Part shown: positions 29,937 through 33,900 of the stretch, piece after piece
How the letters are laid out: every line of letters starts with the position of its first letter
Numbering within the stretch: the first letter of the stretch is position 1
From: a bacterium
GTDB lineage: Bacteria; Electryoneota; B3-LCP
NCBI GenBank assembly: GCA_018812585.1
Contig: JAHJDJ010000171.1
Location: forward strand, 1-39,678
DNA length: 39,678 nucleotides
Reading direction: 5' to 3'
The notes under the pieces: generated by a model
Told to the model about the DNA's origin: nothing
Seen by the model: only the letters and a program-made list of their open reading frames with translations
Databases searched by the model: none
Position numbers and translations under genes: made by a program

Positions 29937-30374
29937 CAGCGCCTCCTTGGTTTATGTTATAATTATAGTGAATTCGGTATATTAGACTTGTAATATAGAA
30001 AAAAAGGGGCAATAATTCAAGATTTTTCTGGAGGATTTGAGAAGGGGGGATTGGGGGAGTGATTCGATCCGGGACATCCTGACTGTGTCAGCCCCTACGG
30101 GGAAGCTGTCCCGGCCACCCGCCGCGGAATTTTGGGGATTAATGGGTTGGTGGGATTTGTCGGAACCGCTGACATACGCTGATCTTTCTGAAAAACGCTG
30201 ACTTCAGCATCGGTGGTATCAGTGTGATTCAGTTTTATTCAGCGCTTTTCAGTGGTTTAGACAAAAATACGGTCACTAATAGCCTTCCCACCGCAAGCAG
30301 TGGGGCACCGGGCACGGATTTAAAAGTCGTCAGGAGGGAACTCCTGACGGTACAGTGAGTATTCATTTTCGCAC
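29937..30374. repeat. 438-bp intergenic region made of palindromic repeats
   Basis: It contains three structures: an inverted repeat with CCGGGACA (30069) and TGTCCCGG (30107) arms and an inner CCCCTACGGGG; a long imperfect palindrome (about 30165-30256) whose arms are rich in CGCTGA/TCAGCG; and a hairpin GTCAGGAG/CTCCTGAC at 30329-30348. No convincing ORF. The pieces look like intergenic repeat families, with the last one also serving as a terminator of the DUF6448 gene. Confidence 0.6.
30320..30348 (-). terminator. Likely terminator of the DUF6448 gene
   Basis: GTCAGGAG/CTCCTGAC stem followed on the minus strand by ACTTTTAA, 26 bp after the stop codon. Confidence 0.6.
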
Positions 30375-31001
30375 TTAGTGCCCATGATTTTCATCCGCTG
30401 CTGAATGATGTCCTTGCGCTCCCGGGGAAAGATAGTTGTGGAGCCCTTCAACGAAGTGCATATAAGTAACATAAGCCTCGACAAATTCACGACCAGCTTC
30501 AACTGAGTGATCCTGATGTTTACCCAACTCAACCGCCCTGTCGAAATGTTTGACAATATTCTCCCGAACCGCGTTTGCGACTTTATCCGCTAATGCATCG
30601 ACACTACCTGATTCGAGTGCCTTGTCCAGTTCAGCGAAAATGGGAGGCATAATCCCAGCTTCCTTGATGCCAGTATAGGATGCTCCTTCACTCGCTCTAT
30701 GAACCCGTATAAATGTCTCGATGAATAACCGATCGGCAATTTCCCTGGCCTCATCGGATTGAGTACGAAGCGTCAGCACACGTGTGAAAAGATCCTTAAT
30801 CTCTGCCTCATCGCCGGATGCCAGCCACTTAAGTAGTGGTGTGATGTTCCCATTGTCGAGAGAAGTCCGGATCAATGGAATGATGGGACCATCTTCTGAA
30901 TCGCAGTGGCTGAAAGCTGGATTTGCTGCCAGAGTGATTATCAAAACTGACAATGTCAGCAATCTGACTAAGAAGCCACAATAGTTGTGGTCAACTAACA
31001 T
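30375..31001 (-). CDS. DUF6448-family exported His-rich protein
   Basis: A 208-residue protein with a signal peptide (about 1-32, ending NPAFS) whose mature form would begin with His-Cys (HCDSEDGP). It continues with PLLKWLASGDEAEIKDLF, RLFIETFIRVHRASEGASYTG and AGREFVEAYVTYMHFVEGLHN, the pattern of the DUF6448 family. Function is unknown. The exposed N-terminal His, the conserved HR, and His-rich tail (GHHSAADENHGH) suggest metal binding in the periplasm. The ATG at 31001 is supported by AGGAG 6 bp upstream. It is driven by cassette A promoter. Confidence 0.8.
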   Translation of the reverse strand: MLVDHNYCGFLVRLLTLSVLIITLAANPAFSHCDSEDGPIIPLIRTSLDNGNITPLLKWLASGDEAEIKDLFTRVLTLRTQSDEAREIADRLFIETFIRVHRASEGASYTGIKEAGIMPPIFAELDKALESGSVDALADKVANAVRENIVKHFDRAVELGKHQDHSVEAGREFVEAYVTYMHFVEGLHNYLSPGAQGHHSAADENHGH

Positions 31002-31097: not shown

Positions 31098-31208
31098 GCC
31101 CAATATACTCTCCCCTCCCGCGCATGTCAAGAGAATATCCCGCCATCTCTCTTTCCAAGACGCCGTTACGACAAACAAAAAGCGTCGGAAAGGAATTTCT
31201 GACGCTTA
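31098..31208 (-). repeat. Promoter-terminator cassette A
   Basis: From right to left (minus strand): hairpin AGCGTC...GACGCT (31181-31206) with T-run ending the barrel gene; the palindrome AAGAGA-N13-TCTCTT (31129-31153); and the promoter TTGACA (31125-31130), 17-bp spacer, TATATT (31102-31107) followed by GG. It drives the DUF6448 gene. Closely related to cassettes B and C. Confidence 0.85.
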
Positions 31209-31217
31209 GGCAATTAA

Positions 31218-31778
31218 CTAAATCCCCACCCCCACATGAAATCCATAGAGGTCACCACTGTTGCCGTTTGAATCGGAGATCTGTTTGTAGTAGCCGATCC
31301 CGATGTTGAACAGAAAGGAGAGACTACCTCGGATCTCTGCTCCTGCATAAGTGCGGTCAGGTACGGCGGAAATCGGATTTCCCCAGGTGCGCAGGAGTAC
31401 AACGCGGGCTTCGCTGAAAACACCAAAATCCGGCATTGACCTGGGGGAAAATATGCCTTGATAACCAATCCCGAAGCGCCCGCCCGTAATACCGGGGCTT
31501 AGCGAAATGCTGAGATTGTGCAGCCATGTTTTATTATCACGGTCTGTCTGGAACATGTGCACGTACCGCGAGGTGATCGACCAACGGTCCGGAGATCCCC
31601 ATTCGATAGAAGTGATGGGTAAAATGACGTCCTGGTCGCTGAGTTGAATCATTCCCCGCCCGCCACCAGATTTCTTTTGCTTTGTGCTTTGTTCTGATTC
31701 CTGGCTCCAAACCGGATGGGCGAACAGGAATATCAGAACGAAGGCATATGGTACTATGAGTCTATACCTGATGTTCAT
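31218..31778 (-). CDS. Exported beta-barrel-like outer membrane protein
   Basis: A 186-residue protein with a signal peptide (about 1-26, ending VWSQ) and alternating hydrophobic/polar strands (SIEWGSPDRWSITSRYVHMF; ITGGRFGIGYQGIF; GSLSFLFNIGIGYYKQI) that end in a GFHVGVGI strand, as in small 8-stranded barrels. No family could be named. It is 33 bp after the 4-TM gene and cotranscribed from cassette B. The first strand is preceded by a Gly-rich, low-complexity stretch (KKSGGGRG). Confidence 0.7.
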   Translation of the reverse strand: MNIRYRLIVPYAFVLIFLFAHPVWSQESEQSTKQKKSGGGRGMIQLSDQDVILPITSIEWGSPDRWSITSRYVHMFQTDRDNKTWLHNLSISLSPGITGGRFGIGYQGIFSPRSMPDFGVFSEARVVLLRTWGNPISAVPDRTYAGAEIRGSLSFLFNIGIGYYKQISDSNGNSGDLYGFHVGVGI

Positions 31779-31811
31779 GGTTCCTCCTGTAAGTTGGCGT
31801 TCGAATCGGAT

Positions 31812-32204
31812 CTACTCGTCCTGACTGTTCTGTTGCAGTTGCTTTCTGCTTTTCCACCAGCAGTAAATGAAAAGTAAAGCTGGTATCACAAAGATAATTT
31901 CGGAACCAGGGTCTTTTGCAGCATGTACCCAAATAACATTCACCATTGCCATAAGGACGATGCTAATTGCAGATAATATACCACCGAATCCTTCCCATCG
32001 CCAGGCAATGAGAAAACCGATCAGCGCAATGATAAACAGAAATGTTACTAACCCATGACCGAAATCGGGATTGGGCATTTCACCTTGCTCTATCACATTC
32101 GCAATGAAGAAGGATAGAGAAAATACTACAATGAGTGTTCCCAGAATTCTTGCTGTCCAACGCGAGTAGGTCACCATTTTGGTTGGTGAAGATGTCGCTT
32201 CCAT
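31812..32204 (-). CDS. Four-helix membrane protein of unknown function
   Basis: A 130-residue protein with four predicted membrane helices (about 14-34, 48-66, 72-90, 98-114) and short loops; the FGHGLVTFLFIIALIGFLIA and RWEGFGGILSAIS segments resemble small DUF-type membrane proteins of FCB and other bacteria. No catalytic residues stand out. The ATG at 32204 follows GGAGG; the longer in-frame start at 32303 is unlikely. The upstream leader from cassette B is about 165 nt. Confidence 0.7.
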   Translation of the reverse strand: MEATSSPTKMVTYSRWTARILGTLIVVFSLSFFIANVIEQGEMPNPDFGHGLVTFLFIIALIGFLIAWRWEGFGGILSAISIVLMAMVNVIWVHAAKDPGSEIIFVIPALLFIYCWWKSRKQLQQNSQDE

Positions 32205-32369
32205 GATTTGACCTCCGTGTTTGAATGAAAGTGATATCTGCATTACAGTCGAGTTCACCTTTGAATTAAGCAGAAGACAAACAGTTGCCAGTTTCCCTTG
32301 CATTTTCGAAGAGTGTCGTGTCTTCGCCGATCCTTCAGTTGAGACAGAGATAAATCACTCTTGAGTTTT

Positions 32370-32484
32370 CTCCCCAATATACCCCACCTACCTCCACATG
32401 TCAAGAGATATTCCCATCATTTCTCTTTTTCCAATACGCAGTTAGGAGGACAAAAAGCGCCAGAAAGAAATTTCTGACGCTTTA
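32370..32484 (-). repeat. Promoter-terminator cassette B
   Basis: Hairpin AGCGCC...GACGCT (32456-32481) ends the phosphatidyltransferase gene on the minus strand. AAGAGA-N13-TCTCTT (32403-32427) overlaps the promoter TTGACA (32399-32404), 17-bp spacer, TATATT (32376-32381). It drives the 4-TM and barrel genes. The order and spacing equal those of cassettes A and C. Confidence 0.85.
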
Positions 32485-32523
32485 TTTAAAGCAGGCAAAT
32501 AGCCGCTTGCATTCTTCTTGTGA

Positions 32524-33237
32524 TTACTGATCACCCGATTTGGTGGGTTGACGGAATTTAGGTGGATCCAGTTTGTAAAGCTTGCGGCCTTCGATAACAC
32601 CGAAGCTGAGGAACAGCGAGAACAGCACCAGCGCCGCTCCCAGAGCCAATAAGCTGAAAAGCGTGAATCGCTTCCCCAGGATATTAAAGGTGGGATTATT
32701 AAACCACCAGACAATGATATTTGAGATAATAATGGCCAAACGGACTTCTGTGGGGCCAAACCCGACAAAAGAGATTTTGAAGACGCCTCGGGCAATGGTC
32801 ACCAGATAGACCAGAATGGTCATGGAGAAGTAGGCGATGATCAACAGCAGAGCGAGGTTCATCTCCATGAAGTTGGAAAGCCCCATAGCAAAACAGATCA
32901 CGAACGTTGAAATGGCGTCGCTGAAATGATCCACAAATAGGCCGTAACGTTCCCGTTCGATGTGCCTCACCCGGGCTAAGGTGCCGTCTAAACTGTCCGC
33001 CCACCAATGCAGAACCAACCCGGCATTTACCACCCACAGCCAGTTACTATTGAAATTCGTCAACCAATAAGCAGCGCCAATAATCAGCGTCGCGGCCAGG
33101 CCCAATCCCGTCAAGTGGTCGGGGATCACCCATTCCGGCAGGCGCACCGCCATCCAGGGGAGCACGCGGCGCTCAAAGGGTCCCAGGGAAATGTTGTTGA
33201 TGCGTGCTTTGGATGAGTTCGAATCAAGGGCGTCCAC
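32524..33237 (-). CDS. CDP-alcohol phosphatidyltransferase
   Basis: A 237-residue membrane enzyme with about six helices and the full family motif D-x2-D-G-x2-A-R-x9-G-x3-D-x3-D: D81, D84, G85, A88, R89, G99, D103 and D107. The enzymes of this family join an alcohol (inositol phosphate, glycerol phosphate, choline and so on) to a CDP-linked lipid in the membrane. The substrate cannot be read from the sequence. The GTG start shares its G with the GtrA stop (TAGTG). It ends at cassette B. Confidence 0.9.
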   Translation of the reverse strand: MDALDSNSSKARINNISLGPFERRVLPWMAVRLPEWVIPDHLTGLGLAATLIIGAAYWLTNFNSNWLWVVNAGLVLHWWADSLDGTLARVRHIERERYGLFVDHFSDAISTFVICFAMGLSNFMEMNLALLLIIAYFSMTILVYLVTIARGVFKISFVGFGPTEVRLAIIISNIIVWWFNNPTFNILGKRFTLFSLLALGAALVLFSLFLSFGVIEGRKLYKLDPPKFRQPTKSGDQ

Positions 33238-33707
33238 TATGCTTTCCGTCCTTTAAAGATGACCTTCTCATTCAGCCAGAATTTTATAAATGGCCCTAAC
33301 ATCATCCCACATAAGTTCGAGATCATAAAATGGACCCCTGCAAAAGTAGTCAGAGACCAGAGTACTGTTATATTTGCCACCAGATCGACCAGCCCGGTCA
33401 TACTATTGTAAATTAAGAGATGCTTAAAGAATGATTTCGGGTTTTCGCCGTTGCGGTCATTCCAGGTCCAGTAGCGATGCCAGAGGAAGTTGTGAATGAT
33501 GGCGATTTCGATGGCCAGCAGACCGGCAGGAATAATAGGAATATGCAGTATCCCTTTAAACAGATACAGGCAGGCAGAATTTACAATCATGCCCATCCAG
33601 GCGACCAGGTTGAATTTTGTGCTGCGAAAAACCAGTTGAAGAACGTTTTTTGTGTTTACCGTCAAGGTGGTTCCAAATATCGGATATTTAGGGATTTGCC
33701 TGCTCAT
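33237..33707 (-). CDS. GtrA-family membrane protein
   Basis: A 156-residue protein with four membrane helices of the GtrA type, e.g. NLVAWMGMIVNSACLYLF, IEIAIIHNFLWHRYWTWND and a C-terminal NEKVIFKG. GtrA proteins are thought to flip polyprenyl-phosphate sugars across the membrane. The KFxxVG-like first helix and the FxxxxxWxF segment fit. The ATG at 33707 is used; a TTG at 33719 is also in frame. Coupled by one base to the phosphatidyltransferase gene downstream, so both may act on lipid-linked substrates. Confidence 0.85.
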   Translation of the reverse strand: MSRQIPKYPIFGTTLTVNTKNVLQLVFRSTKFNLVAWMGMIVNSACLYLFKGILHIPIIPAGLLAIEIAIIHNFLWHRYWTWNDRNGENPKSFFKHLLIYNSMTGLVDLVANITVLWSLTTFAGVHFMISNLCGMMLGPFIKFWLNEKVIFKGRKA

Positions 33708-33789
33708 GCTTTGCTGCAATAAAGAAAATTTTACAGCAATCTATTTTACTTCAATGCTATTTTGAGTCGCCTCTGGATAGCGTCGATTT

Positions 33790-33900
33790 TCACCAATATA
33801 CTCCCACACTCCAGCTATATCAAGAGATAACCATATAATTTCTCTTTATAATGCCGTGTGCAAGGCAACAAAAAACGTCAGAAATAAGTTCTGACGCTGT
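33790..33900 (-). repeat. Promoter-terminator cassette C
   Basis: Hairpin CGTCAGAA/TTCTGACG (33875-33897) with a T-run (minus strand) ends the GNAT gene. AAGAGA-N13-TCTCTT (33822-33846) overlaps the promoter TTGATA (33818-33823), 17-bp spacer, TATATT (33795-33800). It drives gtrA and the phosphatidyltransferase gene. Third copy of the cassette within 2.8 kb. Confidence 0.85.

Follow-up and report, generated by a model that had tools for sequence, protein, structure and literature searches.

The locus described here raises the question of how three similar intergenic segments, each predicted to end one transcription unit and to start the next, came to stand before genes that share no evident ancestry. 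The initial annotation offered two readings, a mobile insulator-like repeat that carries its own promoter and terminator, or three operators of one repressor controlling an envelope regulon. We find that elements of both readings survive in altered form, and consider it probable that the segments are portable terminator–(operator)–promoter modules, multiplied locally as direct repeats and serving unrelated accessory genes.

The window, that is, the whole stretch of 39,678 nucleotides that was analysed, is the entire contig C27 of a 3.85-Mb MAG (G000; 383 contigs, 94% complete), and is chromosomal, with ETF, PBP and GatB genes. It was compared with five other genomes of its family, from other genera (G001–G005), using two sequence models, one of the palindrome–promoter part (R1) and one of the whole cassette (R2), for which, the models being short, E-values are rough. 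The MAG is fragmented; modules were read directly in approximately 1 Mb of stretches and elsewhere reached through searches.

Architecture of the three cassettes

Each cassette measures about 110 bp and, on the minus strand, leads from an intrinsic terminator through a linker to the inverted repeat AAGAGA-N13-TCTCTT and on to a promoter of the form TTGAYA-N17-TATATTGG, an order and orientation common to all three copies and located where the initial annotation had placed them (Table 1). The overlap of the 25-bp palindrome with the −35 element, described there as identically spaced, proves exact to the base: in every copy the last TT of the palindrome constitutes the first two bases of the −35, the spacer to the −10 is 17 nt, and the palindrome is centered at −46 from the predicted start. 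The hairpins fold at −11.8, −16.8, and −12.2 kcal/mol with T-runs directly behind them, and are predicted to terminate transcription; the promoters, near-consensus for sigma-70, are predicted to be strong. At Rfam thresholds, a search of the window returned no known RNA family.

Table 1. Cassettes, their parts and the surrounding genes in the window
Feature	Location	Strand	Remarks
GNAT unit	upstream of cassette C	minus	Pfam; ended by cassette C terminator
Cassette C	33790–33900	minus	
Cassette C terminator hairpin, AGCGTCAGAA-CTTAT-TTCTGACGTT + T-run	33874–33898	minus	ends GNAT unit
Cassette C palindrome, AAGAGA-N13-TCTCTT	33822–33846	minus	probable operator
Cassette C promoter, TTGATA-N17-TATATT	33795–33823	minus	predicted +1 ~33788
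GtrA-family membrane protein, unit C	33237–33707	minus	Pfam PF04138
CDP-alcohol phosphatidyltransferase, unit C	32524–33237	minus	Pfam PF01066
Cassette B	32370–32484	minus	
Cassette B terminator hairpin, AAGCGTCAGAAA-TTTC-TTTCTGGCGCTT + T-run	32455–32482	minus	
Cassette B palindrome, AAGAGA-N13-TCTCTT	32403–32427	minus	
Cassette B promoter, TTGACA-N17-TATATT	32376–32404	minus	G-rich spacer; predicted +1 ~32369
DUF7670 small membrane protein, unit B	31812–32204	minus	Pfam PF24709
Predicted secreted/barrel protein (186 aa), unit B	31218–31778	minus	without Pfam match
Cassette A	31098–31208	minus	
Cassette A terminator hairpin, AAGCGTCAGAAA-TTCC-TTTCCGACGCTT + T-run	31180–31207	minus	
Cassette A palindrome, AAGAGA-N13-TCTCTT	31129–31153	minus	
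Cassette A promoter, TTGACA-N17-TATATT	31102–31130	minus	G-rich spacer; predicted +1 ~31095
DUF6448 protein, unit A	30375–31001	minus	Pfam PF20046
Fourth terminator, CGTCAGGAG-TTCC-CTCCTGACG	30328–30349	minus	closes DUF6448 unit (A)

The proposal that the cassettes bound separate units agrees with the Pfam assignments, which give the minus-strand order GNAT, GtrA with the CDP-alcohol phosphatidyltransferase, DUF7670 with the 186-aa protein, and DUF6448, with cassettes C, B, and A in between; the last unit is closed by a terminator that resembles those of the cassettes but has no related promoter after it. The intervening genes come from different Pfam families, and a comparison of the two small 4-TM proteins found no homology between them. 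All products of the three units are predicted to be membrane or secreted proteins, which is the sole basis on which an "envelope" regulon might be spoken of.

Common origin and selective conservation

Local alignments pair 86 of 108 columns identically for A–B, 84 of 113 for A–C, and 82 of 110 for B–C (74–80%), with scores of 57, 36, and 38, respectively, which is two- to threefold the highest value from 100 shuffles (at most 18). The homology begins at the 5′ arm of the terminator and ends at TATATTGGG, the predicted transcription start, outside of which the flanks fall to the noise level of shuffled sequence. Taken one copy at a time, the inverted repeat is marginal (P 0.04–0.13); across the three copies, six consecutive symmetric columns are invariant, which none of 5000 column shuffles reached. 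In the palindrome–promoter segment, all 10 arm positions that lie outside the −35 are invariant, as compared to 8 of 30 linker positions (Fisher P 5e-5, for a contrast chosen post hoc). The likeness of the three cassettes is beyond chance and stems from common origin combined with selection on particular parts; at 74–80% identity such functional selection could also sharpen the edges of an older, larger duplication.

A more ordinary route to the same arrangement is the tandem duplication of an entire terminator–promoter–gene unit, after which the genes diverged or were replaced. The repeats are indeed direct, adjacent, and in one orientation, the neighboring pairs A–B and B–C are slightly closer to each other than A is to C, and the related terminator behind the last unit would be accounted for as well. 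Yet the genes fall into separate Pfam families, the small 4-TM proteins are non-homologous, and in each pair similarity goes no further than the predicted transcription start.

Confinement of the cassette and its palindrome

The initial annotation had proposed searching the rest of the genome and related genomes for further copies of the cassette, and none came to light. A search of the 3.85-Mb MAG, exact and with up to three mismatches, returned only cassettes A, B, and C, all within 2.8 kb; 60 other genomes, ranging from members of the family to more distant ones, contained none, viral contigs (IMG/VR) gave no match, and a GTDB-wide pattern search yielded four matches in unrelated bacteria, close to the number that a pattern of such looseness would produce by chance. 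Taken by itself, the palindrome is not repeated exactly at any other place in the genome. With one mismatch allowed it occurs at 13 sites versus 9 in a reversed control, and six of the 13 fall inside genes, in repeats that encode T9SS sorting domains, whose presence in this genome points to the FCB group. A wide palindrome regulon was rejected, there being no excess beyond these coding repeats, as was genome-wide dispersal of the exact cassette, which is present in three copies only. The AAGAGA cassette does not amount to a mobile repeat spread over the genome, nor does it mark a wide regulon, and mobility of the cassette itself was not seen, its three copies being clustered in 2.8 kb. Separately, the word GCGTCAG, tried as an over-represented uptake-type word, showed no clear over-representation.

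These results bear on the second original reading, in which a dedicated repressor acts through three operators that form a small local regulon, copied once and kept by selection, without portability. The arms have stayed invariant while the linkers diverged, the −46 geometry over the −35 is identical in all three, and the predicted membrane or secreted products would suit a shared control. However, there is no further site in the genome and no linked regulator gene, the shared terminator and the linker between terminator and promoter are left unexplained, and other genera exhibit like bounded copying with other upstream elements. We therefore hold a stand-alone regulon of this kind to be possible but rather unlikely. 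What stands of the operator proposal is the selective conservation of the arms and their overlap with the −35, both compatible with portability; what does not is a wider regulon.

Copied promoter modules elsewhere in the family

Each of the six family genomes holds weaker matches to R1 and R2, and four further groups of copied promoter modules were encountered, three of them in other genera and one on three other contigs of G000. One pair lies 3.3 kb apart on C6 of G003, where 126 of 136 positions (93%) are identical from the hairpin GCGTTGCGTCAGGTC...GACCTGACGC to TATATTGGGG, with no similarity outside the module. The G000 contigs C100, C172, and C364 share pairwise 70/78, 70/74, and 72/80 positions, two copies on C16 of G004, 0.84 kb apart, agree over 21 nt upstream, which a diverged linker separates from the promoter, and C43 and C126 of G002 agree at 58 of 75 positions. 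In every module pair, as in the window, homology stops at the predicted start, and the module flanks (+40 to +200 and −280 to −110, counted from the −35) score like shuffled sequence in all groups, with the exception of one right flank, between C100 and C364, that slightly exceeds the 95% shuffle level. Clustered direct repeats are found in three of the five module groups.

The recent G003 pair in particular, still 93% identical yet unlike beyond the module, adds to the evidence against tandem duplication of whole units, which we regard as improbable. The mobile-repeat proposal is upheld with a modification: bounded copied modules in at least five groups and four genera, together with orthologs that lack a cassette (below), speak for it, but the cassette itself is not spread through the genome.

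The modules differ in what precedes the promoter. A hairpin that is clearly a T-run-bearing terminator is seen only in the window cassettes; the G003 C6 hairpins have no T-runs, and the modules on C100/C172/C364 (family F2), in G002, and in G004 have no hairpin. A significant palindrome in all module groups was considered and is not supported, the palindromes of the other groups being mostly not significant. The promoter half of cassettes A and B can be aligned with the G002 modules at a score exceeding every shuffle, and the AAGAGA arms are absent from the latter. The window's genes, for their part, occur elsewhere in other company. In G001, the GtrA–phosphatidyltransferase pair (transferase 65% identical) follows a ketoacyl-synthase-like gene after a 10-nt gap and with no cassette, and in G002 the DUF6448 gene (41%) has no cassette upstream. 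Because of these cassette-free orthologs and the alignment of the A and B promoter halves with G002, modules and genes appear to swap partners, with the AAGAGA palindrome seemingly private to the window group; as evidence of movement, orthologs without a cassette in other genera are only suggestive.

Several neighboring observations deserve mention. The 75- to 80-nt repeat of G000 (C100:1660, L067; C172:2164, L180; C364:26719, L179), 90–95% identical between unrelated flanks, contains GTTCCA-N5-TGGAAC or a decayed form of it. By contrast, for the duplicate promoters AAATTATCTCTTGACATTAGCGCAGTCTGTGAGTATATTATAGGTATGATG (G000:C210:5788, L181, and C35:29, L079) the similarity runs into the coding start, so that, judged by its extent, this pair is an ordinary gene duplication, unlike the bounded modules. 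Three contig ends of G001 (C9, L191; C52, L193; C77, L192) carry the promoter CTTGACAAACGTCCATATATTTCGTATATTG, preceded in at least two by a GCGTCAGGAG hairpin, and probably belong to a longer repeat that broke the assembly. Finally, two copies of the promoter CTTGACAACTGCACAATTGTGTAGTATATT, with an operator-like palindrome between −35 and −10, stand at G003:C6:7058 and 9346 (L139), upstream of apparent ImuB/DinB-type and DnaE-type genes, and may mark a regulon of the damage response that is interspersed among the G-rich modules.

G-rich-spacer promoters and the genes behind them

The common promoter of the family is CTTGACA-N17-TATATTG (also given as CTTGACA-N17-TATATTGGGG), and a subclass of it, to which the promoter half of the cassettes belongs, has a −35/−10 spacer rich in G on the non-template strand; several members of the subclass stand in the copied groups described above. 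Spacers with at least nine G are found in 13 of 137 exact promoters against 0.7 expected from the rest, and spacers with at least nine C in none of the 137. Examples across G000–G005 are L065:2163, L145 (G004:C16:65710 and 66548), L151:1402, and L139:5429.

The first genes downstream of G-rich promoters are mutually unrelated and many are accessory or defence-like, including DUF559, HARE-HTH, Nmad3, DUF4145, a HEPN-like protein, SLFN_AlbA_2 joined to a restriction-endonuclease-like domain, and an ATPase with a PADLOC PDC-S06 match at 1e-122; BamE-like, NfeD, YidD, Lon-like, and T9SS genes are found there too. Single genes of the defence or accessory kind lie directly 3′ of strong G-rich-type promoters at L148:18008–19648 (P-loop ATPase), L154:3–1345 (PDC-S06-like ATPase), L076:10696–11673 (SLFN_AlbA_2 with REase-like domain), L065:2231–3016 (HARE-HTH), and L143:18645–19508 (Nmad3). 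A sample of 20 ordinary promoters has mainly secreted and biosynthetic proteins behind it, a contrast to be read as a lead and not as a statistic, the G-rich set being small and drawn from model matches.

A proposed mechanism

In the reading that we favor, the terminator of each cassette would halt transcription of the preceding unit, and a sigma-70 promoter, strong and with a G-rich spacer, would open the following one. The three cassettes would be copies of one module, multiplied locally with unrelated accessory genes between them, following what would be a habit of the family, the copying of self-contained promoter units, some of them hairpin-bearing, that reach no further than the transcription start. 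Centered at −46 and sharing bases with the −35, the palindrome most likely serves as operator for a dimeric regulator, presumably a repressor, and would be private to the window copies; no regulator gene is linked to the cassettes. As for the route of copying, homologous recombination between cassettes, adding or removing one unit together with its cassette, is the most likely candidate and would fit the clustering of direct repeats that three of the five groups show; an unsystematic look noticed no recombinase, terminal repeats, or target duplication.

More speculatively, the cassettes may furnish chromosomal slots for accessory genes, acting as recombination sites and providing each newcomer with an insulated, regulated expression signal, a recombinase-free counterpart of integron arrays; we raise this as an idea with the odds against it. 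A newly arrived gene has to be expressed from signals that function in the host and leave neighboring genes undisturbed, and copied stop-and-start cassettes ending at +1 would meet that need simply. Bounded homology upstream of unrelated genes would then be a testable signature of accessory-gene slots in uncultured bacteria.

Comparison with known systems

An array of about 110-bp direct repeats with a hairpin, set between short genes of the same orientation, invites comparison with an integron, whose attC-type sites separate gene cassettes. Nevertheless, the RYYYAAC/GTTRRRY core is present in none of the three copies, and each repeat has a promoter and precedes the gene it would serve, making an integron-like array extremely improbable.

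A hairpin found at intergenic sites of several genera and at one end of the G003 module, GTTGCGTCAGGTC...GACCTGACGC, brings REP/REPIN elements to mind; the hairpins of the window differ in being predicted terminators followed by T-runs and in having another stem (GCGTCAGAA). The REP-like intergenic hairpin, with a variable middle, is distributed family-wide (G003 L139:5327 and 8670, L143:18388; G004 L146; G000 L158 and L182; G001 L056) and has one IMG/VR match on a viral contig (L199).

Mobile promoters are reportedly homologous short promoter-bearing sequences that lie before non-homologous genes within one genome. On this definition, the cassettes of C27 and the repeats on C100, C172, and C364 would qualify, as homologous promoters precede non-homologous genes in one genome and, with flanks at shuffle level, homology is limited to the promoter region. 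They differ in that the modules here are partly clustered direct repeats and that those of the window further include a terminator and a probable operator; as in operators, a conserved inverted repeat overlaps their core promoter. Mobile promoters of prokaryotes were treated by Matus-Garcia et al. (2012) and van Passel et al. (2014), as cited in PMC8049555.

A functional parallel exists with the PeSLs (promoter early stem-loop), mobile regulatory cassettes of T4-type phages (Arbiol et al., 2010; Comeau et al., 2014, as cited in PMC4503421). According to that citing account, PeSLs are repeated composite units of promoter and stem-loop between accessory genes, and recombination has been proposed to shuffle gene modules through them. 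The window cassettes likewise join promoter and stem-loop in one repeated composite unit, insofar as a comparison through citation permits, a composition that the F2, G002, and G004 modules lack. They reside on a bacterial chromosome rather than in a T4-type phage, come in few copies per group rather than at high density, carry a palindrome over the −35, and have no IMG/VR match. By analogy, then, the window cassettes would function like T4 PeSLs, while being neither PeSLs by location nor, for want of the core sites, an integron; and if they do act as recombination sites, PeSL-type shuffling would extend beyond phages.
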